From Flavivirga amylovorans (GTDB taxonomy: Bacteria; Bacteroidota; Bacteroidia; Flavobacteriales; Flavobacteriaceae): a stretch of 64,000 nucleotides of DNA. Position 1 is the stretch's first letter. Each line of letters begins with the position of its first letter. Positions 7,775-60,920 of the stretch are shown here, one piece after another. Made by a program: the position numbers and the translations under genes. Under the pieces are notes generated by a model, which was given only the letters and a program-made list of their open reading frames with translations, ran no database searches and had not been told where the DNA came from. The stretch is from positions 558,001 through 622,000 of the forward strand of contig NZ_JAUOEM010000001.1 in assembly GCF_030540875.1 (NCBI RefSeq). Reading direction: 5' to 3'.

Positions 7775-7778
7775 AATT

Positions 7779-7872: not shown

Positions 7873-8024
7873 AATTAATCGATCAACTTACGACATATTA
7901 CAGATTCTTGTAATATCTCTACTGGACAAAACTCCTCTAGATGAGCTGTTTAAAAATACAGATTAATGCCAATGAACCAGAATATAAACAACTGGCTATC
8001 AATTTGTTTTCTGTATTTAATTAA
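7866..8024 (+). pseudogene. C-terminal remnant of an IS4-type transposase
   Basis: Translation gives RSTYDILQILVISLLDKTP followed by LDELFKN, which resembles the conserved C-terminus of Bacteroidota IS4-family (DDE) transposases. The frame stops at 7966, but a +1 shift restores a tail reading EPEYKQLAINLFSVF and ending at 8024. Everything upstream in the transposase is gone; the sequence before it is element end (copy C). I read this as an internally deleted, frameshifted insertion sequence. Family assignment is by remembered pattern only. Confidence 0.6.
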
Positions 8025-8179
8025 TGACGTCTAGAAATAAATAAAAGATTAGTTTACTTTGTTGGTAATTAATTTAGTGTCTTTAAATTCAGGAATACTT
8101 GTTATTTATTCTCAAATACTATTAATTTAATTTAATTTGACATCTTTGAGTAACTATAAATTCATTTAAAACGACTATT

Positions 8180-8986: not shown

Positions 8987-9007
8987 TTATCTAACACTTT
9001 TTTGTTT

Positions 9008-9050
9008 AAAAAGCCTTTTAAAGAAACAATTTATCTTTAAAAGGCTTTTT
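9008..9050 (+). terminator. Rho-independent terminator after the 8180-8986 gene
   Basis: A perfect 17-base inverted repeat: AAAAAGCCTTTTAAAGA (9008-9024) and its complement (9034-9050), 9-base loop, ending in a T run. It starts 21 bases after the stop codon. Confidence 0.85.
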
Positions 9051-9167
9051 AATAATTTAATTATCGTTTTCAATCATCATAAAAGAGATTTTATATTTTA
9101 TTTTGAAGTTTTACAATATAAAAAAGGCAAAAAACTAAATAATGCTTAATTACACCTGTAAGAAAAG

Positions 9168-43615: not shown

Positions 43616-43885
43616 TATAATATATCGACCTGACGTTATTTTACTAAAAAATGGATAAAGGATACAAAAAAGAGGGGTTTGAAACCTTTAAAATAAAAGA
43701 ATCCGTAGAAACAAGTTTAGAAAATATTGCAAGGGAATTTCTAAATCACATTCAACTTTTATCAGAAATGTTTTTTTTATTTAATTTTTTTGTTAGGTGC
43801 TGTTTTTTAGCGCGATATAAGAGCGGGTTATGTACTTTTAAAGTTTAAGACTTATGCCTTTAAGGGGCTAATTAATTCTGATTAA

Positions 43886-43922
43886 TTTCCGTTTAAAAAC
43901 TGTTGTTTAGACTAAACGGAAA
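43886..43922. promoter_or_regulatory. Inverted repeat upstream of the kinase operon
   Basis: Perfect 10-base arms TTTCCGTTTA (43886-43895) and TAAACGGAAA (43913-43922), 17-base spacer, 42 bases before the AGTGACA motif. It has no T run after it, so an operator is more likely than a terminator; this is inference. Confidence 0.4.
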
Positions 43923-43963
43923 ATTGTGCTAAGTAATATTTACAAAATTTTAACATTTTTTAA

Positions 43964-43994
43964 AGTGACACTTTTGTGTTAACAGTTATATAAC
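43964..43994 (+). promoter_or_regulatory. Shared AGTGACA-type motif upstream of the kinase operon
   Basis: AGTGACACTTTTGTGTTAAC followed by AGTTATATAAC. A similar block precedes the second kinase (59884-59902, reverse strand) and the DUF1036-like gene (60028-60054). A candidate promoter for a shared sigma factor; the 5' leader to the kinase start would be about 240 bases. Confidence 0.4.
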
Positions 43995-44233
43995 CAAAAA
44001 GAGTATTTATTGAGTATGATCTGTATAAGATAATTTTAAAAATAATGATTTGCTTTAATTTATATGAATTTTATATATAAAAGTAAAAAGAAGATAATTA
44101 AAAATGAAATTAAGAAAACTCAATAGATTTATGATTTTTAGTATTGTGGTTATATTAAAAAACATACATATATACACTAATTTTTAAGCTGTATATTCTT
44201 ATTTTTAAGAAATTTAATAAACCTATTAACCTA

Positions 44234-46129
44234 ATGAAGCTAAACCAATACGAATGGAATCCAGAAGAAGACCTTATAGCAGAAGGTGCTTTCGCCGAAG
44301 TATTTAAGGCTAGGGATTCCAATAATGAAAATAGATTTGTAGCCTTAAAAATTTATAAAGAAGGCATTACTAAAGGAACTTCTGGTAATACAATGGGAAG
44401 TAAATATACTTTGGAAAAAGAGTTTAGAAAGATTGATGGACTATCTCATACTAACATAATTAGCTTTTATGGTTTAGATTATATTACATATAAAGATGGT
44501 CTAGGCAGGACTTCTAATTACCCTGTTATCATTATGGAGTATGCCAGTGAAGGAACACTATTGCAATTTTTGCAGTACCAAAAGACTCCTAGTATTATTG
44601 AAGATTTAATGATTCAAATAATTAATGGTGTTGCCTACTTACATAAAGAAGGAACAATACATAGAGATCTTAAACCAGGTAATATATTAGTATCAAGAAA
44701 TAGGAGAGGAGAGCCAGTAGCTAAAATTACAGATTTTGGAATAAGCCGAGATATAGCAGACAAAAATAATATAGAGCAATCAACTACTGAGGGTGTAGGT
44801 ACACCCCACTATATGGCTCCAGAACAGTTTTTTAAGAAAGAATTTGGTGTTAATGGAGAAATTAGTGAACAAACAGATATTTGGGGTCTGGGAGTTATTA
44901 TTTACCGTATGTTAACTGGCGCCCTTCCATTTGGTCATGGAGTAAAAGATTATGAACTAGTAAGAGATTCAATAACTAATGAAGATCCAGACCTTTTTTC
45001 AATTCCAGAGAGATATAAAGAACTAATAAGATGTTGTTTACAAAAAAAGGCTTCAGATAGACCCAATAGTGCATCACTTCTAATAAACAAAATAGGAGTG
45101 TTAGCCACATTAGAAGAAGAAAAAACGATTGATATTGCTAATCTTGAAAATTTTCAAGATAAAAAAACAATGGAAGTACCATCCAAAAATAATCTGAATA
45201 AGGTTAAAAAGAAAAAATTAGCACTTCCAATAACTATCTCAATAATTGTCATATTATTGGTAATTACAGCTTTTTTCTTTTACAATGGTAATAATCACCC
45301 ATCAGAGTTAGCGGTTGTCAAGCTTAATAATAAGTTTGGTTATATAGATAAGGAGGGTAATAAGATCTTTTCATCAAAATATGATGCTGCCTGGGGGTTT
45401 TCTGAAGGTTTAGGACTAGTAAAATCTAAAGGTAAATGGGGTTTTATTGATGCTAATGGCAATGAGATAATAGAGACCAAGTATGATAATGCTCTTCCAT
45501 TTGCTGAAGGACTTGCGCCGGTTAAGACTAAAGATAAATGGGGATTTATTAATAAAGAAGGTAACGCTAAAATTGAAGCACAGTTTGATGAAGCAGGTAC
45601 ATTTGCTGAAGGCTTAGCTCCAGTGAATAAAAATGGAAAATGGGGATATATTAATAAAAAGAATGAAATTATCATTCCTCTCAGCTATAAATATGCTTAT
45701 TCTTTTTCAGAAGGTCTTGCAGTAGTTGGGCAAAATAATAAAGAGGGGTTTGTTGATAAAAATGGTGAAATTGTAATTCCATTTCAATATGACTTGGCTT
45801 TATCTTTTTCAAATGGTTTGGCAGCAGTTAATATAAAAGGTAAATGGGGTTTTATTGATAAAAAAGGAAATATAGTTATTAAGCCTAGTTATGATAACAC
45901 TTGGGGTTTTTCGGAAGGGTTGGCTCCTGTATTATTTGACAATAAATGGGGTTTTATTGATAAAAAAGGAATCTTCATAATTTCCGTTAAATACGAAGGG
46001 GCTTCAGGTTTTTCCAATGGGCTTTCAGCTGTAAGGTTAAATGGAAAGGAAGGTTTTATTAATAAAGATGATAAAATAGTCATCCCTTTCACTTATGATT
46101 ATGCAGACACGTTTACAAAAGTTAATTAA
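44234..46129 (+). CDS. Transmembrane Ser/Thr protein kinase with WG-repeat ectodomain
   Basis: 631 residues. The kinase domain (about 13-290) has a Gly-rich loop in LIAEGAFAEVFKA, ATP-binding Lys39 (VALKIYKEG), catalytic Asp145 in HRDLKPGNIL, metal-binding Asp167 (DFGIS) and GTPHYMAPEQF, so it should be active. A basic linker leads to one membrane helix (about 329-353). Outside are eight tandem ~34-residue WG repeats (KWGFID.NGN...YD.A..FSEGLAPV), the last cut short. The topology matches sensor kinases such as PknB, with WG repeats in place of PASTA. It heads an 11-gene operon; 15 bases separate it from its likely opposing phosphatase. Confidence 0.93.
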   Translation: MKLNQYEWNPEEDLIAEGAFAEVFKARDSNNENRFVALKIYKEGITKGTSGNTMGSKYTLEKEFRKIDGLSHTNIISFYGLDYITYKDGLGRTSNYPVIIMEYASEGTLLQFLQYQKTPSIIEDLMIQIINGVAYLHKEGTIHRDLKPGNILVSRNRRGEPVAKITDFGISRDIADKNNIEQSTTEGVGTPHYMAPEQFFKKEFGVNGEISEQTDIWGLGVIIYRMLTGALPFGHGVKDYELVRDSITNEDPDLFSIPERYKELIRCCLQKKASDRPNSASLLINKIGVLATLEEEKTIDIANLENFQDKKTMEVPSKNNLNKVKKKKLALPITISIIVILLVITAFFFYNGNNHPSELAVVKLNNKFGYIDKEGNKIFSSKYDAAWGFSEGLGLVKSKGKWGFIDANGNEIIETKYDNALPFAEGLAPVKTKDKWGFINKEGNAKIEAQFDEAGTFAEGLAPVNKNGKWGYINKKNEIIIPLSYKYAYSFSEGLAVVGQNNKEGFVDKNGEIVIPFQYDLALSFSNGLAAVNIKGKWGFIDKKGNIVIKPSYDNTWGFSEGLAPVLFDNKWGFIDKKGIFIISVKYEGASGFSNGLSAVRLNGKEGFINKDDKIVIPFTYDYADTFTKVN

Positions 46130-46144
46130 TAAAAGTGTTTCATA

Positions 46145-46930
46145 ATGAATGAAATAATAAAAAAAACAGAAGGTAACATGGAAAAATACAGTAAACATAT
46201 TTATTTACCTGTAAGTCTGAATGAATTAGGTCAACGTGCTAATAATGAAGATTCTATTTACCCGGAAATTGCAACATTAAATGATAGGTTGTTTATAGTT
46301 TGTGACGGTGTTGGGGGACATAGTAAAGGAGAAGTAGCATCGGCATTGGTTTGCGAAAACTTTGCTCAATTCATCAAACAAAACAATCAAGATGCTATTT
46401 CAAAGAACTTCTTTGAATCTGGGCTTAGGTATGTAGAAACTAAAATGGAAGACTATGTGAATAATGATTCAGGGTGTTCCAAAATGGCCACCACACTAAC
46501 GCTTCTATATTTTTCAGAAGATTATAAATTGGCGTATTTAATATGGGTAGGAGACAGCCGAATTTACCATATTAGAGATGGAAAAGTCCTTTTTCAAACT
46601 AAAGATCATTCAGAAGTACAAAGCTTAATTGATATGGGCGAGATTACAGAGCAAGAAGCTTTAAATCATCCTAGAAGAAATGTTATAACAAGAGCAATAT
46701 CAGGTTCATCAAACCCAACCAGAATTGATTATAAACAAATAGATGAGATACACTCAAATGACTTTTTTCTACTCTGTACAGATGGTATACTAGAAAACTT
46801 AAATGAAGATAAAATTGAAAAATGTTTTAATGTTGAATCCGACCCTCAGGAAATAAAAGAAAAAATAATAGCACATTCTTACAAAAACACAAGAGATAAT
46901 TACTCTATGTATTTAATAAAAACCAAATAA
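46145..46930 (+). CDS. PP2C-family protein Ser/Thr phosphatase
   Basis: 261 residues, cytoplasmic (no signal or membrane segment). Metal-site motifs of the PPM/PP2C family are present: RANNEDSIYPE, VCDGVGGHSKGEVAS, LIWVGDSRIYHIRDG, TKDHSEVQ and LCTDGILENLNED. It removes phosphate from Thr/Ser and is expected to reverse the kinase encoded directly upstream. Met at 46178 (MEKYSKHIYLPV) is an alternative start, with a better purine-rich sequence before it. Kinase, PP2C and FHA proteins in one operon form the usual bacterial phospho-Thr signalling set. Confidence 0.93.
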   Translation: MNEIIKKTEGNMEKYSKHIYLPVSLNELGQRANNEDSIYPEIATLNDRLFIVCDGVGGHSKGEVASALVCENFAQFIKQNNQDAISKNFFESGLRYVETKMEDYVNNDSGCSKMATTLTLLYFSEDYKLAYLIWVGDSRIYHIRDGKVLFQTKDHSEVQSLIDMGEITEQEALNHPRRNVITRAISGSSNPTRIDYKQIDEIHSNDFFLLCTDGILENLNEDKIEKCFNVESDPQEIKEKIIAHSYKNTRDNYSMYLIKTK

Positions 46931-46964
46931 CACAAATATTAATTTTAATCCAAAAACTAAAAAC

Positions 46965-47849
46965 ATGAAAATTTATTTTTTACCCTTTTTGCTTTTCTCA
47001 ACTTTGGTATTCTCTCAACAAACCAGTTTAGGATTGCAGTCTATACAAGCTAGCAATCAAGATGATTATCTAGAAGCAGAAATGCTTTTTCAAAAACTCA
47101 AAGAAATTACAGTTGGAACTAATCGATTTGTTGTTTTAGATCGAGAAACCCTTGGAATAGCTTTGAGCGAGCAGGAAATACAAAAACAAATTACTTCTAT
47201 TAACGCTCAAATTATAGCAGCTCAAGGCAAAATTGAAGGAGCTGGAGATATTATGGGAGGTAAACTTATAAAAGTACAATATAAGGATGGAGGTCTTTTA
47301 AATAAAGTGGGAGGTCTTGGCGGAAAGAAAAAAAATACTGTAAACGATGTTGCCTCAAAATTATACTTTAGAGCTATATTTTCCTTCTCGTTGTATGTAA
47401 TCAGTACAGAAACATCTGAAACTTTGCATTCCAAAACATTTAATGTAGGTATACTAGATAAAAACCCTGGAGGTGCTTCAAAACAAGAAGCTTTTCAAGC
47501 CGCTTTAAAAACACTAGAAAGTAAAATTAAGAAAGAGTTTATTAATGAATATTTTCCCGAAGAAATAGCAATATTACGAGTAGAAAAAGAAGTTAAAGGT
47601 GAAGCAGAAACTATACTTATAAATACAGGTAAATCAAGCGGTACAAAAAAGAATGATAGATTCGAAATATTTCAGATCTCAGTCGAAAATTTAGGAGGAG
47701 AGGAATTGCGTAGGGAAAAAAAAATTGCTGAGGTTAAGGTGACTGCAGTTGAAGGGAAAGCACTTTCTTTAGCTAAAGTATCAAGTGGAGGAGGAGAACT
47801 ATTAAAATCAATTAATGATGGTGAAAAACTAATCTGTAAACTCAAATAA
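46965..47849 (+). CDS. Secreted CsgG-like envelope protein
   Basis: 294 residues with a signal peptide (ends STLVFSQ). The first half has a pattern seen in CsgG and related curli/FlgT-type periplasmic domains: FQKLKEITVGTNRFVVLDRETLGIALSEQEIQ, then a glycine-rich stretch and a beta region. The last ~90 residues (ILRVEKEVKGEAETILINTG, GTKKNDRFEIFQIS) resemble the C-terminal beta-barrel part of FlgT-like proteins. No lipidation Cys. Probably a periplasmic or outer-membrane assembly factor of the module; homology is weak and judged by eye. It is 1 base from the next gene. Confidence 0.5.
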   Translation: MKIYFLPFLLFSTLVFSQQTSLGLQSIQASNQDDYLEAEMLFQKLKEITVGTNRFVVLDRETLGIALSEQEIQKQITSINAQIIAAQGKIEGAGDIMGGKLIKVQYKDGGLLNKVGGLGGKKKNTVNDVASKLYFRAIFSFSLYVISTETSETLHSKTFNVGILDKNPGGASKQEAFQAALKTLESKIKKEFINEYFPEEIAILRVEKEVKGEAETILINTGKSSGTKKNDRFEIFQISVENLGGEELRREKKIAEVKVTAVEGKALSLAKVSSGGGELLKSINDGEKLICKLK

Positions 47850-47850
47850 T

Positions 47851-48312
47851 ATGAAAACTCTAGTGAAAATTTTATTTATATTTTTTGTATTAGTACTTAT
47901 AGCTTGTGGTGGTTCTAAACATGCCGAATTTACATCTGCAAAAGTTAAATATGTTTCAAATAATGATTTTGAAACATTAAGATTAAGTAGCATTGAGGTA
48001 GGTTCCAATAAGGAAGAAGCTATTTATAATGCCCAAAAACTGGCATTTCAAAACCTGTTTTTTAGAGGTATACCTAATTCCCCATATAAAAAGCCTTTAA
48101 TAAGCCTTAATGAGGCAGAGGCTTATAAAAAACATAAAAAGTACCTAAATGATTTTTACAATGGCAGAATGCAAACGTTTATTACCAATTCAACCGACTT
48201 CATAAATAAAAAGGGTGCTGGAGTTACGGCAACTGTTAATTTAATCATTAATATGCGAGCTTTAAGAAAAGATCTTCAAAATAATAACTTAATGCAAAAA
48301 TTTGGAATATGA
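47851..48312 (+). CDS. Small lipoprotein, LPP20/FlgT-like
   Basis: A 153-residue lipoprotein (signal ending VLIAC, then GGSKHAEF). The pattern GSNKEEAIYNAQKLAFQNLFFRGIP resembles the alanine-rich helix of LPP20/FlgT-N domains, in which repeated Ala mark a conserved start. The C-terminus overlaps the next gene's start by 4 bases (ATGA), showing translational coupling. Together with its neighbours it suggests a small envelope complex. Family assignment is tentative. Confidence 0.5.
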   Translation: MKTLVKILFIFFVLVLIACGGSKHAEFTSAKVKYVSNNDFETLRLSSIEVGSNKEEAIYNAQKLAFQNLFFRGIPNSPYKKPLISLNEAEAYKKHKKYLNDFYNGRMQTFITNSTDFINKKGAGVTATVNLIINMRALRKDLQNNNLMQKFGI

Positions 48313-49238
48313 AACAGCTAAGAAACTTATTAAGAATAGCAATTGTAACGTTACTTTTATTTCCTTTTGGAATCAATAGTTCTTATGCTCAGTGTGATGA
48401 GGATTTAAACGTTATTCAGCCCAGTATAATGGTATTGCCTAGAACAAAAGCGGGTGAAGACTTAAGGACGATTATAGATGAAAGACCCGAAATTCGTATA
48501 GGTATCTCTAAATTAACAGAATATCTAAATGAAAACCATGATTATCAAACTTATGATTTTGAAACTAAGTTAAAAGCGCTGATAAGGGATGGGGTAATTA
48601 CTGATAGTCAAACCAAAAACGACGTAAAAGATGCGGTATTAAAGAATATACCAGCTGATATTGTCATGGAGATAGATCTTATGTATGTAGAGGCTGATTA
48701 TGGTAACTTAGTTCGTATTGTTCTTGAAGCCAATGTAACTGCAACTGGGAAAAATATGGGCAGTAGTATTTGTGAGTCTAGAATTATGCGTATTACAGAT
48801 ATAGGGATGCTTACTGACCTTGCATTAAAGGGTAATACAAAAGCCAGTATTCCATGTGCTGATGAGTTTTTAAATAATATGTATAATGATTGGGCTAAAA
48901 TTGCTACTGGAGGTCAATCTTTAAAAATAGATTTTGGCATTGAAAATAATTCTGAAAAGGACATGAATTATATAGTTCCGTCTAAAAAGGATAGACTTAA
49001 ATACGTTATTGAAGATTGGCTAAAAGAAAATGCTCTTAGAGATGGTTACAAAATAACGATTTCTACTGAAAATAAATTGATTGTTGAAGATTTTCGGTTT
49101 TCAAAATGTGATCCTAAAACGGGAAAAAGACAATCTACAACAGATATTGAGCGCAAGCTAGACAGATTTTTCATTCAGCTAGATTTACCTGCTAAATTAA
49201 TAAATAGTACGGGATCAATTTTTGTTAAAATTTTATAA
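48309..49238 (+). CDS. Secreted protein, DUF6175-like
   Basis: 309 residues with signal peptide (ends SSYAQ). The start of the mature part, VIQPSIMVLPRTKAGEDLRT with RIGISKLTEYL after it, and the phrase ADIVMEIDLMYV match what I remember of Bacteroidota DUF6175 proteins, a family of unknown function whose fold resembles other CsgG/TolB-N-like alpha/beta periplasmic domains. It ends with a polar ~100-residue region (VPSKKDRLKYVIEDWLKENA). No enzyme motif. Coupled to 47851-48312 by overlap. Confidence 0.5.
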   Translation: MKQLRNLLRIAIVTLLLFPFGINSSYAQCDEDLNVIQPSIMVLPRTKAGEDLRTIIDERPEIRIGISKLTEYLNENHDYQTYDFETKLKALIRDGVITDSQTKNDVKDAVLKNIPADIVMEIDLMYVEADYGNLVRIVLEANVTATGKNMGSSICESRIMRITDIGMLTDLALKGNTKASIPCADEFLNNMYNDWAKIATGGQSLKIDFGIENNSEKDMNYIVPSKKDRLKYVIEDWLKENALRDGYKITISTENKLIVEDFRFSKCDPKTGKRQSTTDIERKLDRFFIQLDLPAKLINSTGSIFVKIL

Positions 49239-49248
49239 AATATACATC

Positions 49249-50208
49249 ATGAAAAACATATTTATTTTACTAATGTTTATTGGGGTTTCCCTAAAATGTT
49301 TGTCTCAAGAAAACAATATAAATCTATCGGTTATTTTGACAAATACTGGAATGGAAGAGTTGAGTCTAACCCAAAAAGAAAAAATTCAAAGGAAATTGTA
49401 TACTATGGTTACTAATCATGGTATTGCAGGAGATAGTTATTTTGTTCTTTTTCCTAAATATGAGATTTACAACGAAACCCTAGTAGAAGGATTACAAAAC
49501 CTTACTGTTTTAGATATTGAATTTAGTATGTTCATAAAAGAAATACAAACAGGTAGGATATATGGTTCCTTAACTCAAAAAATTCAAGCCCAGGGAACAA
49601 CTAAACGTCGAGCAATAGACAAAAGTATTTCTAAAATAAAAACAAGTGGTAATGAAATTGAATCTTTTTTGGCTAAAACAAAGACAGAAATTATGGATTA
49701 CTATACATCAAATTGTAATCAAATTAACTCGGAAGCAAATAGCTTAATGCAACAAAAAAGATTTAGAGAGGCAATTGCACTTTTATATGCAGTACCTAAA
49801 AGTACTGGAAGCGGTTGTTATAATAAAATACAGAGTAAACTTAATGAAGCTTATTTGGGGTATATGAATGCCACATGTGAAGAAAATATAATAAGGGCCA
49901 AAAATGCTATAAAGAACAATAATAATCATAGTGCTTTGGAAGTTTTAGAAGAAATTGACCCAGAATCTAATTGTTATAAGGAGGCTCAGCAATTAAGCTT
50001 GGAAATAAATGGAGATCTTAATAAAAAAACCTCTGTAAAAAAGACTGAAATAGCAGTTACAGGTGGTATTGAAACTACAACTTCCACTAAAAAGACTGAT
50101 AAGAGCGGAAAAACTATTTCATTAGTACGAAAATCAAAAAAAGTTGAAGCTATAGCAAAAGTCCAGTACAGAAGTAGGCACGAAAAGTTTATTACAGATA
50201 ACAATTAA
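49249..50208 (+). CDS. Secreted protein of unknown function, possible TPR-like helices
   Basis: ATG at 49249 gives a proper signal peptide (starting MKNIFILLMFIGVS, ending CLSQ), so I reject the upstream in-frame start at 49222. Mature protein: N-terminal alpha/beta part (LSVILTNTGMEELS, YEIYNETLVEGLQN, FIKEIQTGRIYGS) similar in style to CsgG/LPP20-like domains; a middle helical part with repeats of the form EANSLMQQKRFREAIALLYA and AKNAIKNNNNHSALEVLEEI, suggestive of TPR-like pairs; and a Lys/Thr-rich C-terminus. I do not recognise the family. It is the third or fourth envelope protein of this operon and probably a component of the same assembly. Confidence 0.5.
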   Translation: MKNIFILLMFIGVSLKCLSQENNINLSVILTNTGMEELSLTQKEKIQRKLYTMVTNHGIAGDSYFVLFPKYEIYNETLVEGLQNLTVLDIEFSMFIKEIQTGRIYGSLTQKIQAQGTTKRRAIDKSISKIKTSGNEIESFLAKTKTEIMDYYTSNCNQINSEANSLMQQKRFREAIALLYAVPKSTGSGCYNKIQSKLNEAYLGYMNATCEENIIRAKNAIKNNNNHSALEVLEEIDPESNCYKEAQQLSLEINGDLNKKTSVKKTEIAVTGGIETTTSTKKTDKSGKTISLVRKSKKVEAIAKVQYRSRHEKFITDNN

Positions 50209-50299
50209 ATCTTTATATAATGATAGGCATGTTACTTTTTATAAATATAGAAAGTGCTATCTCAACGTACAAGTAATTAACAATTTTAAATAAGTAAAA

Positions 50300-51133
50300 A
50301 TGAAATATAGTTTTTTAAATTTTTTCATAATGTTAATCACATTTAATTGTTTAGGTCAACAAATAGGAAATATTAATATAGAAGATTTAATAGGTAAGTA
50401 TAGTATAAGTTTAAATGAAGTTGAAGGTCTAAATGATTGTGGACATATACTTGATGGTCCCTTGTATGTTATGAAGACGTTTGAGAATAAATCGTTGGAT
50501 GCGGCTTTGCCTTTTGCTAATCTTAATACAAATGAAATAGGAAAAGAAATATATGAGAAAATTATTGAGTCTAATAAAGTATTGGATAATCATTGGGCAG
50601 AAAGCGATATAAATAATGTAATTAAGAGGCTAACAGCACAAATGGAACCACGCGATAAAAAAGTATTTAAACTAAATATTATTGATTCTGAAATAATTAA
50701 TGCTTTCACTACTTATGGAGGATTTATATATATAACAACAGGTTTAATAGAATTTGTTGAAAGCTATGATGAATTGGCATTTATAATTGGTCATGAGATT
50801 GGTCACGAAATCAATTTGCATACACAAAGAAAGATAACAAAATTAATGATACCTTCTAACGTATTAAGTCAAATGAATCTAGATACTCTTAAAAATGTCG
50901 TTGTTAGTCTCAATACAAAGTTCTCAGCTCCTTTTGATCAGATAGATGAATATGAGGCCGATAAGTATGGTGTTATGCTTGCTTATAAAGCAGGGTTTGA
51001 CTCTACTCGTTTTGCAGATTTTTTTAAAAAAATGGAGAAATACGATGACAAAAGTATTTTAAAAAAAATATCATCTACACATCCGTTTGCCGAGCATAGA
51101 AAGAATTGCATCAATAAATATATAGCTGAATAA
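50300..51133 (+). CDS. Secreted M48-family zinc metallopeptidase
   Basis: 277 residues, signal peptide (ends NCLGQ). HEIGH zinc motif with His165, Glu166 and His169 inside FIIGHEIGHEINLHTQRK; the downstream Glu of EYEADKYGVML (about 217-219) is the third ligand and ADKYG is typical of M48. The end SSTHPFAEHRKNCI is also conserved in the family. Periplasmic M48 enzymes (BepA/LoiP-like) handle outer-membrane protein quality control. It lies 91 bases after the previous gene and 2 bases before the FHA-ABC gene. Catalytic residues are intact. Confidence 0.9.
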   Translation: MKYSFLNFFIMLITFNCLGQQIGNINIEDLIGKYSISLNEVEGLNDCGHILDGPLYVMKTFENKSLDAALPFANLNTNEIGKEIYEKIIESNKVLDNHWAESDINNVIKRLTAQMEPRDKKVFKLNIIDSEIINAFTTYGGFIYITTGLIEFVESYDELAFIIGHEIGHEINLHTQRKITKLMIPSNVLSQMNLDTLKNVVVSLNTKFSAPFDQIDEYEADKYGVMLAYKAGFDSTRFADFFKKMEKYDDKSILKKISSTHPFAEHRKNCINKYIAE

Positions 51134-51135
51134 TT

Positions 51136-53502: not shown

Positions 53503-53514
53503 CAGTTGTTAATC

Positions 53515-54387
53515 ATGAAAAAATTAGTTACATATTTGATTATCATTATAGCGCTATCATCTTGCGGGAAAAAGCCAGATTTTGTTGCAATAGAGAATGT
53601 TGAGGTAGAAAGTATTAAAGATTCTGTTATTAACGTTAAAATGAATTATGTTGTTTTTAATTCAAACGCTGTAAAATCTAAATTAGAACAAGCTAATTTG
53701 AAGATTTACTTTCAGGATAAAGTAGTAGGAAAAGGATATTTAAATCAGACCGTTTTACTTTCACCTAAAGACACTATTTCTGTCCCTATAAAGTTTGAAC
53801 TCAATTTAAAGCAACTTAGCAAATTTTATCCCATTCTGCTAGAATCTGATTCTTCTGAGTTTTATATGGAAAGTAATAGTAAGATTAAGGTCATGTTAAA
53901 AACGTTTTCTGTTAAAGGAAAAGAAACCATTTTTTTGGATACAAAAAACATCATTAAATCAGAACTAAATAATAGGTTCAACAATTCTGAAAATTTTAAA
54001 GTTAAAGGTGTAAGTGTTGATAAAATACCAACATTAAATGAATCGAGTTTTAACATTAATGTTCAGGCTAATAACAATTTGCCTTTTGATTATAAAGTAG
54101 AGCGGCTGGAGCTCACGTTTTATAATGCCTCTTCTCAAGTTGCTAAATGGCAATTACAACAATCATTTTTGCAAAAAGCTCATAAGACTACCTCAATACC
54201 TATTACAATTACTGTAAATAATCTCAACTTATTGAAAAATGCAGATATGTCATGGTTTGTAAAGAAAGAGATAGAGTTTGATATAAAGGGTAAAGCTGTT
54301 ATCATAGTTAATGGATATGAATTTAATATACCCGTTGAAGATAAAATCAAATTCAAATTAAAAATATTAACTGGAATTTTTGAATGA
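53515..54387 (+). CDS. Lipoprotein with two LEA14/WHy-like domains
   Basis: ATG at 53515 gives a lipoprotein signal (start MKKLVTYLIIII, ending LSSC), preferable to the TTG at 53506. 290 residues; two similar beta-sandwich units can be seen (about 20-135 and 150-285), each with a pattern like VEVESIKDSVINVKMNYVVF/VSVDKIPTLNESSFNINVQA and asparagine-rich turns, as in LEA14/WHy water-stress domains. Likely located in the periplasm or at a membrane surface. It overlaps the sigma-factor start by 4 bases. Function unknown; the two-domain reading is by eye. Confidence 0.5.
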   Translation: MKKLVTYLIIIIALSSCGKKPDFVAIENVEVESIKDSVINVKMNYVVFNSNAVKSKLEQANLKIYFQDKVVGKGYLNQTVLLSPKDTISVPIKFELNLKQLSKFYPILLESDSSEFYMESNSKIKVMLKTFSVKGKETIFLDTKNIIKSELNNRFNNSENFKVKGVSVDKIPTLNESSFNINVQANNNLPFDYKVERLELTFYNASSQVAKWQLQQSFLQKAHKTTSIPITITVNNLNLLKNADMSWFVKKEIEFDIKGKAVIIVNGYEFNIPVEDKIKFKLKILTGIFE

Positions 54388-54941
54388 AGGACAAAGAAAT
54401 TATTGAAAGATTAAAAAATGGTGATGAAAGTGGGTTAAAACATTTATACCGCCATCAAAAAATGATAAAATCTTGGATAAATAAAAATAATGGTAATGGA
54501 GAGGATGCCGAAGATCTTTTTCAAAATGCAATACTTGTTTTCTACAAAAAAGTAATGTCAGGAGATTATGAGTATAAATCAAAGATTAGTACATATTTAT
54601 TTTCAATATGTCAAAGACAATGGTTAAATGAATTAAACCGCAGAAAGAGTAAAGAGCAAACCACTGAAGATTTTATGAAATTTGATAAAGGAGTATATGA
54701 GAAACCCATGGAAGATGGCTCAAATGAGAAGCTTATAGGATACATTACAGAGCAATTAAATAAGTTAGGCGAGCCTTGTAAATCTTTATTAGAAGCTTCA
54801 ATTTATCTGCAAGTGAGTATGAAAGATATAGCGTCAAAATACAACTATAAAAATGCTCATTCTGCAAGACAGCAAAAATTGAGATGCCTCCAGCGTTTAA
54901 GAGGAGGTATGAATAATGGTATTATCCAACAGTTAAGATAA
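54384..54941 (+). CDS. ECF-type RNA polymerase sigma factor
   Basis: 185 residues. Region 2 is visible as EDAEDLFQNAILVFYKKV with ISTYLFSICQRQWLNELNRR; region 4 is more diverged, with CKSLLEASIYLQVSMKDIAS and YKNAHSARQQKLRCLQRLR matching a helix-turn-helix. The length and two-region layout fit ECF sigma factors. The start overlaps the preceding stop (ATGA), and 3 bases separate it from a membrane protein in the anti-sigma position. It may direct transcription of this operon and of the neighbouring kinase gene via the AGTGACA-type motif; that is inference. Confidence 0.85.
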   Translation: MKDKEIIERLKNGDESGLKHLYRHQKMIKSWINKNNGNGEDAEDLFQNAILVFYKKVMSGDYEYKSKISTYLFSICQRQWLNELNRRKSKEQTTEDFMKFDKGVYEKPMEDGSNEKLIGYITEQLNKLGEPCKSLLEASIYLQVSMKDIASKYNYKNAHSARQQKLRCLQRLRGGMNNGIIQQLR

Positions 54942-54944
54942 GTT

Positions 54945-56069
54945 ATGGAGGAAGAATTGAAAAATATAGATTTGATAGATAAGTATCTTAATCAAAATCT
55001 TGATGCAGAAGAATTAGAGTTTTTTAACACTCAAGTATTAAAAGACCCAAATTTTATAAAAGAGGTAGAACTGTATAGAATGATTTATGCTGGCATAGAA
55101 AGAAAAGGCGAGGATTCTTTAAAAGAAAGGCTAAATACATATTATGAAGAATATAAAAATGAAAATCTACCCAAAACAGATAAAGGCAAAGTAATTAAAT
55201 TATTTGTAAAACTTAGTATTGCTGCTTCCGTTTTTTTAGGTGCTTACATTCTATTTAATAATGATAATCAAGGATTAGATCCAGTTAAGAATGGCCCTAA
55301 TATAGTAGGCACTGACACAACAGGTATACAAAAATCTAAAGATTCTATTATAAAGAAAAGTAATGAGGTATTGGTAGAAGAGAATAATACTGAGAAGGAA
55401 ATCATAGAAAAACGAGATCAAGGTAAAAATTTACTTTATGAAGATAATTCGCAATTATCAATTGGTGGCATACAGAAATTAAATAAAGACAAGATTAGGA
55501 GAATTATATACCCACAACAGTTACAATATAGTTTTGATGGTAAAACACTAGCACTGTTTGGTGATCCTTTATTGCCTGCTTTACAGTTACAAGTTTTAAA
55601 AACATCTACTGGAACTTATGTGTTAAAATATAAAAACAACTATTATAAAATTAATCAGAATAATTCAAAAAATAACCTGGTTAAAGTTTCGCAAAGTTAC
55701 AGTATAAAGAAAAAGATAGATGAACAAATTAATGTTAATGTCAGGAGTATTATTGAAACCTCAAACCCCTTAACAAACCTGGAAGTACTTATTAATGATG
55801 ATAATTCATCTCCTAATTATAAATTTATTAAAGAAGATAGTCGACTTGTTCTATCCGGGAATTTAGATTATTCTAAAGCCTATGTATTTTCACTAGAGCA
55901 AGAAAATGAAATCACCTATTTTTTAAAAATAGAAAATAATCTGTACGAACTAAATTCTAATAATCAAGCATCAACTCAACTAACAAAAATGGATATTTTA
56001 AAAAATAATAAAACTCGAATTTTTAGAGAAAGAGATTCTTTTATAAAAAATGTATACTTAGCTAATTAA
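54945..56069 (+). CDS. Single-pass membrane protein in anti-sigma position
   Basis: 374 residues: acidic cytoplasmic N-terminal part (1-80) with IDKYLNQNLDAEELEFFNTQV, a pattern found at the start of Bacteroidota anti-sigma factors; one membrane helix (about 83-103, LFVKLSIAASVFLGAYILFN); then a ~270-residue periplasmic region rich in Asn, Lys and Glu, with beta-type repeats (YSFDGKTLALFG, GTYVLKYKNNYYKI, ITYFLKIENNLYEL). Directly after the sigma gene, it probably binds and controls it. No zinc-binding His-x3-Cys-x2-Cys motif is seen. The last gene of the operon. Confidence 0.65.
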   Translation: MEEELKNIDLIDKYLNQNLDAEELEFFNTQVLKDPNFIKEVELYRMIYAGIERKGEDSLKERLNTYYEEYKNENLPKTDKGKVIKLFVKLSIAASVFLGAYILFNNDNQGLDPVKNGPNIVGTDTTGIQKSKDSIIKKSNEVLVEENNTEKEIIEKRDQGKNLLYEDNSQLSIGGIQKLNKDKIRRIIYPQQLQYSFDGKTLALFGDPLLPALQLQVLKTSTGTYVLKYKNNYYKINQNNSKNNLVKVSQSYSIKKKIDEQINVNVRSIIETSNPLTNLEVLINDDNSSPNYKFIKEDSRLVLSGNLDYSKAYVFSLEQENEITYFLKIENNLYELNSNNQASTQLTKMDILKNNKTRIFRERDSFIKNVYLAN

Positions 56070-56125
56070 AAACTATTCTTTAACAATACCTAAGTGTTCT
56101 ATTACCAATAAAATAAACAAAAACA

Positions 56126-56349
56126 TGAGTATTACTAATTATTTTTTAGAAAAAGGAGCTACATTATAAGTATACAGTATACATTAGAGGGGGAAATAGG
56201 TATTGGAGGTTTTGTCATAACTTATAAAGGCATTTATAAAAGGAAAGTAGATATTAAAGAACGGTTTAATAATATAAAGACTACCGTTTCTATACCTGTT
56301 GACATTAAAGAACTTTTTATAGAGGGAAATAGGTCTTATAAGTTGAAAT
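56126..56349 (+). pseudogene. N-terminal remnant of a third Ser/Thr kinase
   Basis: Translation gives MSITNYFLEKGATL, a stop/frameshift, then YTLEGEIGIGGFVITYKGI and KVDIKERFNN. This is the opening of a different Bacteroidota kinase class (usually L.KGT.L..RY.IE..LG.GGFGITY...VAIKEFF), with the Gly-rich loop and the Lys strand recognisable. A stop follows at 56349 and nothing of the catalytic loop remains. It shows that another kinase was once encoded at the end of this operon. Confidence 0.65.
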
Positions 56350-56404
56350 GATTTCTCCAATTGTTGTAGAAGTATTAAATTAACCTGAGTTTCTATGTTA
56401 AAAA

Positions 56405-56745
56405 CATCTTGTGTAATCCAATGAAATACAGCTATTTGTCATGACGGAGTGAAGCATGAGCCCTTCGACTGCGCTCCTTTAGGATAAACTTTCGAGACAT
56501 CTCATCATAATGAGATTCCCTGCCTGCCAATGTCATTAAGTTAAAGGAATTTATTTTATTTTGTCACGTTGAGCGCAGTCGAAACGCTATTGAAAGCAAG
56601 TAGTTTAAATGTCTTCGACTGCGCTCAGACTGACACCACAGTCTTAACTTAATGACATTGGCCGGCAGGCTCCTCGTTCCTCGTTGGAATGACGTGATTT
56701 CTTTTTTAAAACCTTTTAAGTGTTTGATTATCTATATAACTAACG
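56405..56745. repeat. Palindromic dispersed repeat between convergent genes
   Basis: Outer blocks match 43470-43615. The core is a nested inverted repeat: GCCTGCC plus AATGTCATTAAGTTAA (56522-56544) against its complement at 56644-56670 (a four-base insertion in one arm), and inside it TGAGCGCAGTCGAA (56570-56583) against TTCGACTGCGCTCA (56613-56626), with a third CTTCGACTGCGCTC at 56463. Repeats with GAGCGCAGTCGAA are frequent between genes in flavobacterial genomes as I remember them. Its GC content is higher than that of its surroundings. It may act as a two-way terminator. Confidence 0.7.
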
Positions 56746-56926
56746 TTAAATTAAATTGTTATAATGCAAAACAGTACTATGTAGTTTGAAATAATTATAA
56801 AACACTATTTGTGGTTATTTAATTGTAAATCAAATGGATATATTATTCATAATGACGTGTCAGTAGTTATAATAAAATCCCATAAAGGAGTTTTTAAGAA
56901 GTAAGTAATTTACTTTATAAATAATT

Positions 56927-59740
56927 TTATCTGGTTTGCGTTCCAGTTACCCTAAAATTATCAAAAGATACAATAGTATTAGGTTTTTCAGAATATGTAA
57001 CAACAACTCCTGCCCAACTACCTTCAATAGGTGATATTCTAAAATTATAAATAACCAATTGATTATTTAGATAGCATGATATGTAGTTACCTTCTTTAAC
57101 AACTTTTAAGGTATTGTTGGTTTTTTTTGGGGAGACGTTTATCCTTTTTAACTCTTTCCACTTTTTGTCTTTAAACAAATGTAATTCAACATAGTTGTTT
57201 GCAATATTAAATACATGACCATTTGTACCATCATAATCAAAGTACAACCCAGTATGTGTTTGAGATTCACTAATAATAATATCAGTTTCAACGGTGTATT
57301 TATAAGTGTCTATCTCAAAATCATCACCCTTCCAATAACTATAATTGTCATTAATAACTTTAAGTTGTAAACTTTCAAAAATATATTTCCACGTACGGTT
57401 ATCACTACTAGACTCTTTAAATCTGGATGTAGATGTCTCATCCGAAAAATCATCATAATACTCGAAATCCTTAATTATATGTTTTGCTCCTTTATTAACT
57501 AAAAGATTTTTGATTTTTTCATTATTTAAATTTTTAGCATAGTACAACATACTATTTCCACCCTTAACAGTATCATTAATAAAATTTACAGCTTCAGTAT
57601 TTAAAATACGCTCTAAAATATTGAGATCTTTAGTATCAATAGCTTCTTTTAGTGATAAATAGCCGTCTTCATCTTTGCCTTCCCAACCAGCGTCAATTAA
57701 CTTTGTAGCAATTTTCTCTTGATTTGAAGCATTTTCATCTGAATACTTGGAAAGTATATCAGACATAATATTAGGATAAGAATTAAAATCAAAAGTACCA
57801 ATGGCATCCATAGTTTTATCGAGTAGGGCATAGTCTATGTTTTCAATTGCTTGTTCGATATTGTAGCCATTTTTTGATTTTGAAAAGTTGTACGAAAAAC
57901 GACCTCCCAAAACCAAAAAAATAAACAAAAAACCTGAAATGTAATATTTTTTTAGTGCAGCGTTTTTTAAAGCATCATAAGTAATTATTGAAAACCCTAG
58001 AATTATTGATAATAACCAAACATAGTAGCCTGATTTTAGCTTATTTATGTGTAAAGTTCCGCTTATGTCTAGAGCATTATGTAACCAACTAGAATAACCA
58101 TTGCCAGAACTAAGAAACATCCACCATGATGATGCTATGAAAATGCTACAAATAAAAAGAATTATTACAAATTTCAAGAAATCTTTATGCTTTTTAAATA
58201 AAAACAAAAAAATTGCCATTGTAAAAAAAACATTTGGTATTAAGGTAAGAAACCTACCATCACTAAATTTAATTAAGTGTATGGTATCAAAACCATTATA
58301 ATCATTATAAATTGTTAATAAAAAAGAAAAGCAAAACAGAATTAAAGCAAAAAGTAAAAAGTATACATTAAGAGGCTTGTTTAGGAAAATGGTTTTTAAA
58401 TTCCTTTTTCGAAGTAGTAGCCAAAAAGGAAAAATGATTTCTACAGACCAAAACAAGATTTTAAAAAAATACCATATAAACCAATCACTGGATTTCTCTG
58501 GAAAAGATTCAATTATTCCTAATGTTAGAAGTATATTACCATACAATAATATACCATAGCATATAACTTTAGCTATGGCATTCTCTTTAGATTTTAATAT
58601 TAAAAAAAACAAAAGCGTTATACAAATAGGATAGAGGGATATTATGAAAAACTCGTAGTTACCAAATCCAACTATAAATGTACCTAAACTTGCCAGTAAA
58701 TTTATAATTCCAAAAACCCATAAGATAATTTTTTCCCATTTGCGGAGTTGGTTTTTATTTTCAGAAGGGTTTTTTTTAAAACTCTTTACGGAATTTTGTT
58801 GCTGATTTAATATTATTGTTTCATCAATAATTTCTTTTTTTTGTGGTTTTACTATTTTAGTTTTTTCATCCAGTTCTTTTATTAATAACAAAAGGTCATC
58901 AACTTTTTTTGGTCTTTTTGCTGCTTCTTTTTGAAAACAAGCTTTAAGCATATCAACATATGAACTAGGTACTTTTGAATAATCTGGAGTATCATTCACA
59001 ATAGCATCTTTTACCAATTCATAATCTTTGCTGTTGTTTCCAAAAGGTAACTTACCTGTTAACATACGGTAAATAATAACTCCAATAGCCCAAATGTCCG
59101 TTCGGTTAGTTATTTCTCCATCTATGCCAAAACGTTTCTTGTAAATTTGCTCAGGAGCCATGTAATGAGGGGTACCAACACCTTCAGTCATGGAATGCTG
59201 TAATAAGTTATCCGAAAATACATCTCGACTTATACCAAAATCTGTAATCTTAGCAATAGGAAAACCTTTCCTGTTCTTAGTGATAAGTATATTACCAGGT
59301 TTTAAATCTCTATGTATTATCCCTTCAGTATGCAAATAACTAACTCCGTTAAGAATATCCTTAATTATTTTATCTAATAGGTTGTTTTCTGGGTGGGTTT
59401 GCATAAAATTTGCTAGTGTACCTTCAGTAGCATATTCCATAATTAATACCGCATGGCTAATTGAGCGCCCCATAACATCTTCATGCTTTAAGTAATCTAA
59501 ACCAAAATAGGTAATGATATTTGAATGTGATAAACCATCTACGTTTTGAAATTCTTTTTCTAAACTATATTTTTTTAATCCTGTGCTAACAGAAGACCCT
59601 TTAGAAACAGCTTCTTTATAAATTTTAAGTGCTACATACCTGTTGTTGGTATTTGTGTCTTTAGCCTTAAAAACTTCAGCAAATGCTCCTTCAGCAATTA
59701 AATCATTATCAGGATTCCATTTATATTGGTTGAGATTCAT
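56927..59740 (-). CDS. Polytopic membrane Ser/Thr kinase with ankyrin-like and lectin-like C-terminal domains
   Basis: 937 residues. The first ~290 are closely related to the kinase at 44234 (both open with N-Q-Y-x-W-N-P and LIAEGAFAEVFKA), with Lys39, Asp145 in HRDLKPGNIL and GTPHYMAPEQIY, so it should be active. Then about nine hydrophobic helices (about 340-613), an ankyrin-like helical region (about 650-755; ATKLIDAGWEGKDEDGYLSL, LLVNKGAKH), and a concanavalin-like/DUF1080-type beta-sandwich (about 760-937; GLYFDYDGTNGHVFNI, ISCYLNNQLVIYN, VSFDNFRVTG). The sensor part thus differs fully from the WG-repeat kinase. It converges on the operon containing the sigma factor. Confidence 0.9.
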   Translation of the reverse strand: MNLNQYKWNPDNDLIAEGAFAEVFKAKDTNTNNRYVALKIYKEAVSKGSSVSTGLKKYSLEKEFQNVDGLSHSNIITYFGLDYLKHEDVMGRSISHAVLIMEYATEGTLANFMQTHPENNLLDKIIKDILNGVSYLHTEGIIHRDLKPGNILITKNRKGFPIAKITDFGISRDVFSDNLLQHSMTEGVGTPHYMAPEQIYKKRFGIDGEITNRTDIWAIGVIIYRMLTGKLPFGNNSKDYELVKDAIVNDTPDYSKVPSSYVDMLKACFQKEAAKRPKKVDDLLLLIKELDEKTKIVKPQKKEIIDETIILNQQQNSVKSFKKNPSENKNQLRKWEKIILWVFGIINLLASLGTFIVGFGNYEFFIISLYPICITLLFFLILKSKENAIAKVICYGILLYGNILLTLGIIESFPEKSSDWFIWYFFKILFWSVEIIFPFWLLLRKRNLKTIFLNKPLNVYFLLFALILFCFSFLLTIYNDYNGFDTIHLIKFSDGRFLTLIPNVFFTMAIFLFLFKKHKDFLKFVIILFICSIFIASSWWMFLSSGNGYSSWLHNALDISGTLHINKLKSGYYVWLLSIILGFSIITYDALKNAALKKYYISGFLFIFLVLGGRFSYNFSKSKNGYNIEQAIENIDYALLDKTMDAIGTFDFNSYPNIMSDILSKYSDENASNQEKIATKLIDAGWEGKDEDGYLSLKEAIDTKDLNILERILNTEAVNFINDTVKGGNSMLYYAKNLNNEKIKNLLVNKGAKHIIKDFEYYDDFSDETSTSRFKESSSDNRTWKYIFESLQLKVINDNYSYWKGDDFEIDTYKYTVETDIIISESQTHTGLYFDYDGTNGHVFNIANNYVELHLFKDKKWKELKRINVSPKKTNNTLKVVKEGNYISCYLNNQLVIYNFRISPIEGSWAGVVVTYSEKPNTIVSFDNFRVTGTQTR

Positions 59741-59883
59741 TTAAAATTACTTTTGGTTAGTTGAGTAAATATAGTTTACACTGTTATTAAAACAAAAAAG
59801 GATGTTACTTATAATAACTTTTTTTTTTGAGTAATCTGACTCATTTTATTGCTTCATTATTAAGTGTTTAATAGTTAATAGCA

Positions 59884-59902
59884 AAATTTAAAAAATGTCA
59901 CT
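59884..59902 (-). promoter_or_regulatory. Shared AGTGACA-type motif, kinase 2
   Basis: On the reverse strand AGTGACATTTTTTAAATTT, then TGCTATTAACTA. About 155 bases before the kinase start; same layout as at 43964 and 60028. Confidence 0.4.
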
Positions 59903-60027
59903 CTTCTAGTTATCATCTAAATTAATTTATAACCACTTAAGGGGATTTGTTTTTTAGTATATAATGTAGAATTGAATAATTTTTTACCAAAAATTAAACG
60001 ATTTTTTTAAAATTACTTAAATCGGGA

Positions 60028-60054
60028 AGTGACATTTTCAAATTAGCAGTATAA
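60028..60054 (+). promoter_or_regulatory. Shared AGTGACA-type motif, DUF1036-like gene
   Basis: AGTGACATTTTCAAATTAGC followed by AGTATAAACC; 53 bases upstream of the start codon, a normal promoter distance. Confidence 0.45.
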
Positions 60055-60086
60055 ACCAATATAAATAACTATTAAAACCGCATAAA

Positions 60087-60920
60087 ATGAAGTCACTAAA
60101 AATTAATAATCCTGCCCTCAATAATGCATTTTTTTTAAATGTATTAACCATAAGATTAATTACAGCTTTTTTCTTTACAATTATATTTTCTATTGGAGTC
60201 CATGCACAAGATGTGTTCGAAATAAAATTTACAGCTGGTTATACTCAATACAGAGGCGCTCTGGTAATTTATAATAGTGGGTCTGGAAAAATGAGAGTTA
60301 GATATTATAGTAATGGTAAAACCAAAATGGTTGAACAAACAATGAAAATTGAGAATACTCAATATGGTATGAGACTTACAGGATATAATCCTGTTTACCC
60401 CAATACGTCTATTAAACACCCTTCGTATAATGCAGATAATTTTTATATATCGGTTAATGAAAATGGTAAATATAGTATAACCAATATAGATGATGGTGGA
60501 ACTCCAGCTAAGACTACTATACGGTTAATAAAGGGGAAATATTCTATTGATAAATTTCTGGGTGATTTTAACTGGGAACTTAATTCTACTAGCACTTCTA
60601 AACAAATTTATTTTAAGAATACTTGTAGTTCTGATATAAAATTAGCAGTTAGATATCGTTATAATGATGAGAGTTGGACAACGAAATACTGGTACAATAT
60701 TGATGGTAATGAAAGAACATACTTATCTTCAAATGGAAATAGACTAACTACCAATAACAGCATAGTTTATATTTATGCTAAAATTCCTGGTGAGAATTAT
60801 GAATGGTCTGGTGAAAAATCTAGATATATAAATGGTGAATATTACGATATGATGGAATATGAAATGAATATAGACTCCGATGGAGATTATTATATTTCTT
60901 TAAATTGCTTAAATCGTTAA
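60087..60920 (+). CDS. Secreted protein with C-terminal DUF1036-like domain
   Basis: 277 residues with a long N-region and signal peptide (ends IGVHAQ; Met at 60087 is the only good start). The first ~130 mature residues form a beta-rich domain (VFEIKFTAGYTQYRGALVIY, GSGKMRVRYYSNGKTKMVEQ). The C-terminal half, KQIYFKNTCSSDIKLAVRYR with SWTTKYWYNIDGNE following, resembles DUF1036, a small domain of unknown function with conserved N-C and W residues found near signalling and stress genes. It is divergently transcribed from kinase 2 and shares its motif, so it is probably part of the same response. Function unknown. Confidence 0.6.
   Translation: MKSLKINNPALNNAFFLNVLTIRLITAFFFTIIFSIGVHAQDVFEIKFTAGYTQYRGALVIYNSGSGKMRVRYYSNGKTKMVEQTMKIENTQYGMRLTGYNPVYPNTSIKHPSYNADNFYISVNENGKYSITNIDDGGTPAKTTIRLIKGKYSIDKFLGDFNWELNSTSTSKQIYFKNTCSSDIKLAVRYRYNDESWTTKYWYNIDGNERTYLSSNGNRLTTNNSIVYIYAKIPGENYEWSGEKSRYINGEYYDMMEYEMNIDSDGDYYISLNCLNR

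Follow-up and report, generated by a model that had tools for sequence, protein, structure and literature searches.

What brings two Ser/Thr kinases, a phosphatase, an exporter and a set of envelope proteins together at a single bacterial locus? We addressed this question for a 64-kb stretch of the Flavivirga amylovorans genome (4.86 Mb), covering positions 558001–622000 of a 1.28-Mb contig and referred to here as the window, in which eleven plus-strand open reading frames (ORFs) are packed between positions 44234 and 56069. An earlier note, made from the letters of this stretch, had read these genes as a phospho-threonine signalling and envelope module; as a whole, that interpretation is partly supported by the present analysis. 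We consider it rather probable that the locus encodes a self-contained phospho-threonine circuit, which gates an ABCG-type envelope exporter. What we infer about its topology, about the gating as such, about the course and sign of the signal and about the roles of the accessory proteins is as follows. Two receptor kinases would sense the state of the envelope or of the outside, the kinase STPK1 via a WG-repeat domain across the membrane and the kinase STPK2 via a multi-transmembrane part and a C-terminal domain, and would phosphorylate threonines, either their own or those of a partner. The two N-terminal FHA domains of the transporter would bind phospho-threonine, whereby the transporter would be recruited, clustered or switched at the kinase, and the PP2C phosphatase would reset the circuit. 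On the periplasmic side of the exporter, a LEA14-like lipoprotein might act as substrate carrier and an M48 protease as processing or quality-control enzyme, while a sigma/anti-sigma pair may adjust expression. The WG part and a cassette of CsgG-like, LPP20-like, DUF6175 and TPR-like proteins may form an outer-envelope output block, common to a kinase-free variant of the system.

To place the locus, relatives of the transporter were collected. Within the window's family, they are present in 2 of 120 genomes and, in a later draw, in 9 of 397 (overlapping draws, both including the own genome), and among genomes drawn from the phylum in 5 of 296, the own genome counted; the best 80 of at least 570 confirmed loci from a public collection were added. 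Neighbouring genes were labelled with profiles that were seeded with the window proteins and iterated inside the fetched loci, so that 'not detected' may also stand for a missed homologue. The window falls into a sister clade of 13 clusters, all of which retain M48, the transporter and LEA14. Nine of them bear FHA domains, namely the window, L025, L026 and L027 from Muricauda/Allomuricauda, L105, which is a second cluster copy in Muricauda okinawensis (G413), and G427, G515, G499 and G663, and all nine carry both a Ser/Thr kinase and a PP2C. Neither of the two was detected in any of the four clusters whose transporter lacks FHA (G018, G511, G528 and L029). On the tree, these four form one clade (100/100) nested within the 13 rows (100/99), with outgroups that bear FHA, and mapping yields one change for FHA and one for the kinase, with kinase states read off the gene neighbourhoods of 19 of the 21 rows (all except L052 and L039); the 80-row tree likewise gives one FHA change. 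Two loci from records already represented, L036 (as L017) and L059 (as L021/L022), were dropped from the tree and from the motif counts below. A single clade of the window and the FHA-less rows is neither rejected (p 0.315) nor shown. The absence of FHA, kinase and PP2C is thus one joint loss. Because clusters with an FHA-less exporter also come without kinase and phosphatase, these data suggest that the signal controls the exporter, and a receptor kinase whose phospho-threonine is read by the FHA domains of an ABCG transporter, with reset by PP2C, is the simplest circuit able to account for the joint presence. A natural control is provided by the sister clusters that lack FHA, kinase and PP2C.

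The same three components are also confined to the locus when the whole genome is considered. In the window's genome, both Pkinase matches over the cut-off (2/2), the one PP2C_2 match (1/1) and both FHA domains (2/2) lie in the locus, and a third Pkinase match stays below the cut-off with 21.1 bits. The two clusters of M. okinawensis account for two kinases over the cut-off, two PP2C and four FHA domains, one set per copy; in G415, which harbours L025, there is the cluster kinase plus a partial 38.8-bit match elsewhere. The genome of L029, taken as one with G606 and counted once, yielded neither FHA nor PP2C_2 matches, and its kinase search gave nothing over the cut-off. Of the 71 FHA domains in 16 genomes that have an FHA-bearing member, 67 map to the contig of a cluster, no more than about 20 kb away from its transporter (10/10 in four genomes, 57/61 in 12 further ones); the four outlying domains belong to G419, G423, G424 and G426, and those of G419 and G426 stand beside a kinase. 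These genome-wide counts of kinase, PP2C and FHA leave out G511, G528, G427, G515, G499 and G663. Hence, the unit of kinase, phosphatase and FHA transporter that had been proposed for this locus is indeed present or absent as one in the nearest clusters and confined to a single place in its own genome. Both transporter FHA domains retain the GR and SRxH motifs, which bind phosphate in this fold, making phospho-binding by both predicted domains likely. Bacterial Hanks-type kinases often have numerous targets that are difficult to assign. By Pfam models, the set in the window's genome appears to be closed, with two writers, a single eraser and a single reader protein, which renders the purpose of its kinases directly testable.

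Beyond the sister clade, a kinase lies within six genes of the transporter in 17/27 Bacteroidota-clade loci, 4/5 Ignavibacteria loci and 19/45 others, and a PP2C in 15/27, 4/5 and 3/45, respectively. These and the following neighbourhood counts cover 77 of the 80 loci (L056, L060 and L064 have no transporter gene model) and are lowered by contig ends. We drew the lists of 27 and 5 loci from the 80-row tree and added L036 and L051 from outside it; two Alteromonas and two Verrucomicrobiota records count among the 27 because they group there, and one Bacteroidota record, L050 (Bernardetiaceae), counts among the remaining 45.

The closest known system is Rv1747/PknF of Mycobacterium tuberculosis, whose core of kinase and double-FHA ABCG transporter is of the same kind. 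The statement of the earlier note that no named system has this gene set is therefore only partly right; a limited literature search aimed at the set returned no paper on it by title. Common to both systems are an FHA-FHA-ABC half-transporter of the G subfamily and a Ser/Thr kinase gene in the same locus (PMC3908365, PMC5549992). The former report describes a two-gene operon, a positive effect of PknF, two FHA domains and phosphorylation by PknF (PMC3908365). According to the latter, phosphorylated Rv2623 binds the first FHA domain of Rv1747 and restrains growth, and glycolipid export is suggested (PMC5549992). In contrast to that pair of genes, the window adds PP2C, M48, a LEA14 lipoprotein, a sigma/anti-sigma pair and the envelope cassette, and its type has a sister variant without detected kinase, PP2C and FHA. 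A further difference concerns the linker between the two FHA domains, where the phospho-acceptor threonines of Rv1747 are located: the linker of the window's transporter contains no threonine, and those of the relatives listed contain 0 to 5. The present locus extends the idea of Rv1747/PknF to Gram-negative envelopes, with M48 and LEA14 as periplasmic partners.

With regard to the input, both kinases have counterparts in related clusters. STPK2, which the earlier note had placed next door, aligns at 39% identity with the cluster kinases of G515 (975 columns) and L107 (980 columns), and as a full-length relative of kinases inside sister clusters it can be assigned to the system on sequence grounds. 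Its kinase domain is 59% identical to that of STPK1. The last 291 residues of STPK1 match the kinase-free WG protein of an FHA-less cluster at 145 of 291 positions (50%), without gaps and from end to end; hence, this part is found both fused to a kinase domain and on its own. A free WG protein also occurs in the G515 and L105 clusters, that of G515 being 42% identical over 270 columns, and the WG gene of L015 is overlain by an antisense ORF. STPK2 may accordingly be the older cluster kinase and STPK1 a duplicate that became joined to a WG protein. Among relatives, the part behind the kinase domain is swapped between WG, Sel1, MORN, beta-helix and multi-transmembrane versions.

It is conceivable, if doubtful, that the autophosphorylated receptor kinases dock the exporter directly. 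That is, a juxtamembrane T-[IVM]-x-[ILV] motif would be read by the FHA domains, envelope sensing would be wired to ABCG export without transcription, and the sister version would have dropped kinase domain, PP2C and FHA together while retaining exporter, protease, LEA14 lipoprotein and WG sensor. Candidate sites are TIDI and TMEV in STPK1 and TIIL in STPK2. In the window's own group, where the motif was first noticed, it is present in 5 of 7 kinases (0.43 expected), and in a hold-out set in 2 of 3 (0.26 expected, 1.9% of shuffles as high), for which common descent is a possible reason; the hold-out set was formed after dropping G663, a near copy of G499, and leaving out L026, a near copy of L025. 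The looser T..[ILV] is not unusual there (2/3, 1.69 expected). Among 33 kinases of Bacteroidota/Ignavibacteriota type, juxtamembrane T..[ILVF] was found in 16 as compared to 17.5 expected from shuffles, T[IVLM].[ILVF] in 6 as compared to 4.5, and an acidic residue plus T..[ILV] in 12 as compared to 8.1 (32 of 500 shuffles as high), the latter with 28 sites where 11.7 were expected and no shuffle reached that number; the control S..[ILVF] gave 17 of 33 (20.5 expected). For all 55 kinases, the three threonine patterns gave, in the same order, 32 versus 32.8, 12 versus 8.8 and 13 versus 11.8. The motif may thus serve as a lead only. If direct docking is true, one and the same machine is at hand for comparison with and without its gate.

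Several observations weigh against the gating circuit and have to be set beside the evidence for it. The joint absence maps to a single event on the tree and counts once, and the test for independent pairs had one pair. The nine FHA-bearing clusters are mutually related, L025 and L026 being almost identical and L026 and L105 coming from one genome. In genome G018, which contains an FHA-less cluster, a separate locus (L106, 6982–10871) encodes two FHA proteins together with a kinase and a PP2C. Confinement is weaker for kinases than for FHA domains: 2 of the 4 kinases of G233, 2 of the 3 over the cut-off in G418 and 4 of the 5 in G419 are encoded away from the cluster. Threonines resembling FHA ligands are not enriched beside the kinase domains for two of the three patterns (33 kinases). 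Finally, one phospho-partner of an Rv1747 FHA domain reportedly acts negatively, so that activation is not implied (PMC5549992). Given that Rv2623 restrains growth via FHA, the sign of FHA binding in the window's system may be either.

The genes flanking the transporter bear on what is exported and where. M48 is no more than two genes away from the transporter in 20/27 Bacteroidota-clade loci, in 2/5 Ignavibacteria loci (4/5 within six genes) and in 0/45 others, and LEA14 is equally close in 17/27, 4/5 and 2/45, respectively. Since the grouping of M48, FHA-ABC and LEA14 recurs across Bacteroidota and Ignavibacteriota, it is more than chance. In L028, genes for a TssR-like VWA protein, an ABC ATPase and an FtsX-like permease (4274–9130) stand directly upstream of these three genes. 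Six relatives (L033, L034, L035, L046, L047 and L049) encode fusions of FHA, a transmembrane segment and M48, which tie the protease to the reading of phospho-threonine. Moreover, the PP2C proteins of many relatives continue into a transmembrane segment and one into LysM, and MlaE and MlaD genes are found inside one relative's cluster. From this adjacency, the fusions, the PP2C extensions and MlaE/MlaD we infer that the neighbours point to outer-envelope lipid or lipoprotein handling, and the partners M48 and LEA14 suggest how the exporter couples to the outer envelope. The M48 protein, one of four in the genome, shares with BepA and LoiP the M48 domain and a predicted periplasmic location; however, its partial NCBIfam matches of 73 and 40.9 bits stay far under the curated cut-offs (570 and 365), and the FHA-transmembrane-M48 fusions set this type further apart. 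One could also regard the transporter as an ordinary accessory exporter whose neighbours are unrelated and clustered through operon drift and shared inheritance. Its rarity in the family and a full gene order that recurs at no other examined locus would fit, but M48, LEA14, kinase, PP2C and FHA come together in varied orders across classes and phyla, and neither the FHA-M48 fusions nor the genome-wide confinement is explained, which makes this improbable in our view.

The cluster consists of two conserved blocks that have been joined. Block 1 comprises M48, the double-FHA ABCG half-transporter, the LEA14-like lipoprotein, the ECF (extracytoplasmic function) sigma factor, the putative anti-sigma protein, a Ser/Thr kinase and PP2C; block 2 comprises the WG repeats and the CsgG-like/LPP20-like/DUF6175/TPR quartet. 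In the nearest FHA-bearing clusters the order is M48, FHA-FHA-ABCG, LEA14, with kinase and PP2C beyond or beside, and in the FHA-less clusters it is M48, ABCG without FHA, LEA14, WG protein, CsgG-like, LPP20-like, DUF6175 and TPR. The window cluster contains genes of both variants, and the quartet was not detected in the other eight FHA-bearing sister clusters. With respect to the gene-order conservation that had been proposed as a check, the sub-blocks are thus conserved, whereas the complete eleven-gene order is present at no other locus examined. The quartet can stand without kinase or transporter: of six other genomes with DUF6175, G207 has the cassette whole (a 404-residue gene without Pfam match, a lipoprotein, DUF6175 and TPR side by side) and G227 has it in part, and in the remaining four the DUF6175-like gene alone was labelled, one with a lipoprotein-like stretch. 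It is therefore a separate cassette, and its earlier description as CsgG/LPP20/FlgT-like stands only in part. The CsgG assignment is borderline, FlgT_C scores 13.8 bits against a cut-off of 27, and the LPP20-like label of the 153-residue lipoprotein LPP153 reflects a resemblance only. A likeness to curli (type VIII) secretion is limited to the one borderline CsgG-domain protein, which differs in having no lipobox and for which PDB sequences yielded no CsgG chain at E<=1; no other curli family exceeded its cut-off in the scanned cluster proteins.

The sigma pair follows LEA14 in seven of the nine FHA-bearing sister clusters and in L040, and its pairing with the putative anti-sigma protein, noted earlier for the window, hence recurs. 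As the pair was found in none of the four FHA-less clusters, the kinases might mainly control expression by phosphorylating sigma or anti-sigma, with the FHA transporter as one of several outputs. However, kinase, PP2C and FHA transporter are retained in G499 and G663, where no sigma pair was detected, the pair occurs in only 4 of 27 Bacteroidota-clade loci, and FHA sits on the transporter rather than on the sigma pair. We regard control of expression as an unlikely main purpose, with gating of the exporter as the preferred reading.

Sets of kinase, PP2C and FHA are also known from type VI secretion, where the PpkA-PppA-Fha pathway uses them as writer, eraser and reader to control an export machine. 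That the window represents the regulatory arm of such a system would agree with this shared set, with the TssR-like protein upstream in L028 (TssR_VWA 64.7 bits, cut-off 25.7) and with a below-cut-off TssO match in an FHA protein of L047. We give it hardly any credence, since the FHA partner is an ABC exporter and VipB/TssC (PF05943) was found in 0 of 10 genomes including those of the window and L028, a search in which only E. coli of 14 controls matched, so that its reach to Bacteroidota-type sheaths is not shown. Similarly, a defence island against phages or mobile elements, with kinases as in PD-T4-6 or MADS, appears very improbable. Both kinases do match mad6 and PD-T4-6 of PADLOC, the PP2C matches PDC-M21C (35.3 bits), and the occurrence is patchy (the 9 of 397 family genomes, own included). 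The kinase matches, however, extend over the kinase domain and the residues that directly follow, STPK1 reaches 95.3 bits for MAD6 where the curated cut-off is 460, and the mad3/mad8 matches of the transporter fall within its ATPase. Ten proteins were scanned (TPR, LEA14 and anti-sigma left out), and among them the CsgG-like protein, LPP153, DUF6175, M48 and the DUF1036-like protein have no PADLOC match.

All thirteen genes are present on the strands and at the positions given earlier (Table 1).

Table 1. Genes of the cluster and its neighbours (positions in the window)
Gene product	Position	Strand	Evidence
STPK1, cytosolic Hanks kinase, one transmembrane segment (residues 329–347), C-terminal WG repeats	44234–46129	+	Pkinase, WG_beta_rep; transmembrane segment by hydropathy
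PP2C phosphatase	46145–46930	+	sole PP2C_2 match of the genome
Secreted protein, borderline CsgG domain, without lipobox	46965–47849	+	PF03783 24.6 bits, cut-off 20.8
Small 153-residue lipoprotein (LPP153), LPP20-like by resemblance	47851–48312	+	lipobox in sequence; 5-sequence family A6
DUF6175 secreted protein	48309–49238	+	PF19672 127.5 bits
Secreted protein, part weakly TPR-like	49222–50208 (or ATG 49249)	+	TPR matches under curated cut-offs
M48 metalloprotease, HEIGH motif, predicted periplasmic	50300–51133	+	PF01435 90.9 bits; H-E-x-x-H conserved in A2
FHA-FHA-ABC-ABC2, ABCG-type half-transporter	51136–53502	+	FHA twice, ABC_tran, ABC2_membrane
LEA14/LEA_2-like lipoprotein	53506–54387 (or ATG 53515)	+	PF03168 39.4 bits; profile match 1xo8, E 0.0016
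ECF-type sigma factor	54384–54941	+	TIGR02937 60.3 bits, cut-off 42.9
Putative anti-sigma membrane protein, transmembrane segment 86–104	54945–56069	+	transmembrane segment; partner of sigma in sister clusters
STPK2, Hanks kinase, multi-transmembrane part and C-terminal domain	56927–59740	-	full-length relative of sister-cluster kinases
Secreted protein, weak DUF1036 resemblance	60087–60920	+	PF06282 17.4 bits, cut-off 23

With the starts of the ORF caller, the gaps between the eleven genes are 15, 34, 1, -4, -17, 91, 2, 3, -4 and 3 bases; the gap of -17 is due to a TTG start at 49222 and becomes +10 with the in-frame ATG at 49249, with which the previously given range of -4 to 91 holds. The domains named earlier for WG-repeat kinase, PP2C, M48, double-FHA transporter, LEA14-like protein and sigma factor all exceed their curated cut-offs (Pkinase, WG repeats in eight stretches, PP2C_2, M48, LEA_2, Sigma70_r2/sigma70-ECF), as does DUF6175; the transporter carries two FHA stretches, ABC_tran and ABC2_membrane in one chain, and the translations show the catalytic motifs of the kinases, M48 and the ABC protein. 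For PP2C, the domain model is over its cut-off, and the more specific Stp1/IreP model NF033484 is not (186.3 bits, cut-off 230). STPK1 stays below the PASTA-type PknB model NF033483 (145.8 bits, cut-off 450) and has WG repeats instead. No Pfam match at E<=0.1 was obtained for the putative anti-sigma protein and LPP153, and profiles of the DUF6175 and CsgG-like proteins gave nothing useful among PDB chains. The structure matched by the LEA14-like lipoprotein, 1xo8, is At1g01470, a plant LEA14. The earlier DUF1036 label of the last gene did not hold up, and the gene counts only as a possible member of the system; its product scores 13.7 bits for CsgF (cut-off 25.8) and had no other match in the 91 sources searched.

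The G+C content is 29.9% for the cluster, 32.8% upstream and 29.4% downstream, which gives no clear signal of a mobile island, and no tRNA gene was found in the window; promoter and terminator scans gave no excess over shuffles. In Muricauda sp. CP2A, a MobA/VirD2-type relaxase gene beside the cluster (L025, 1153–2199) hints at mobility. A related cluster of kinase, PP2C and FHA-ABC is found in the gammaproteobacterium Alteromonas (L032 and L037), with an M4-type (thermolysin-like) protease fused to FHA in L032 and an ExbB/MotA-like gene in L037; horizontal transfer is suggested for it, as its transporter groups with those of Bacteroidota on the tree. Loci of Idiomarina and Aliidiomarina (L080 and L095) have two kinases, two PP2C, FHA, FHA-ABC and a short LEA14-like protein, and beta-helix repeats are present in the kinases of L080, the one of these two loci that was scanned. 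Upstream of the cluster in the window, the minus strand encodes a hybrid two-component sensor (35854–39945) with a Reg_prop propeller, histidine kinase, receiver and AraC parts. Just upstream of the cluster (40679–41665) lies a gene for a Fib_succ_major-like protein (32 bits, cut-off 33.9) with a type IX secretion sorting tail, and this domain also occurs inside the kinase/FHA clusters of L049 (over the cut-off) and L017 (below it).

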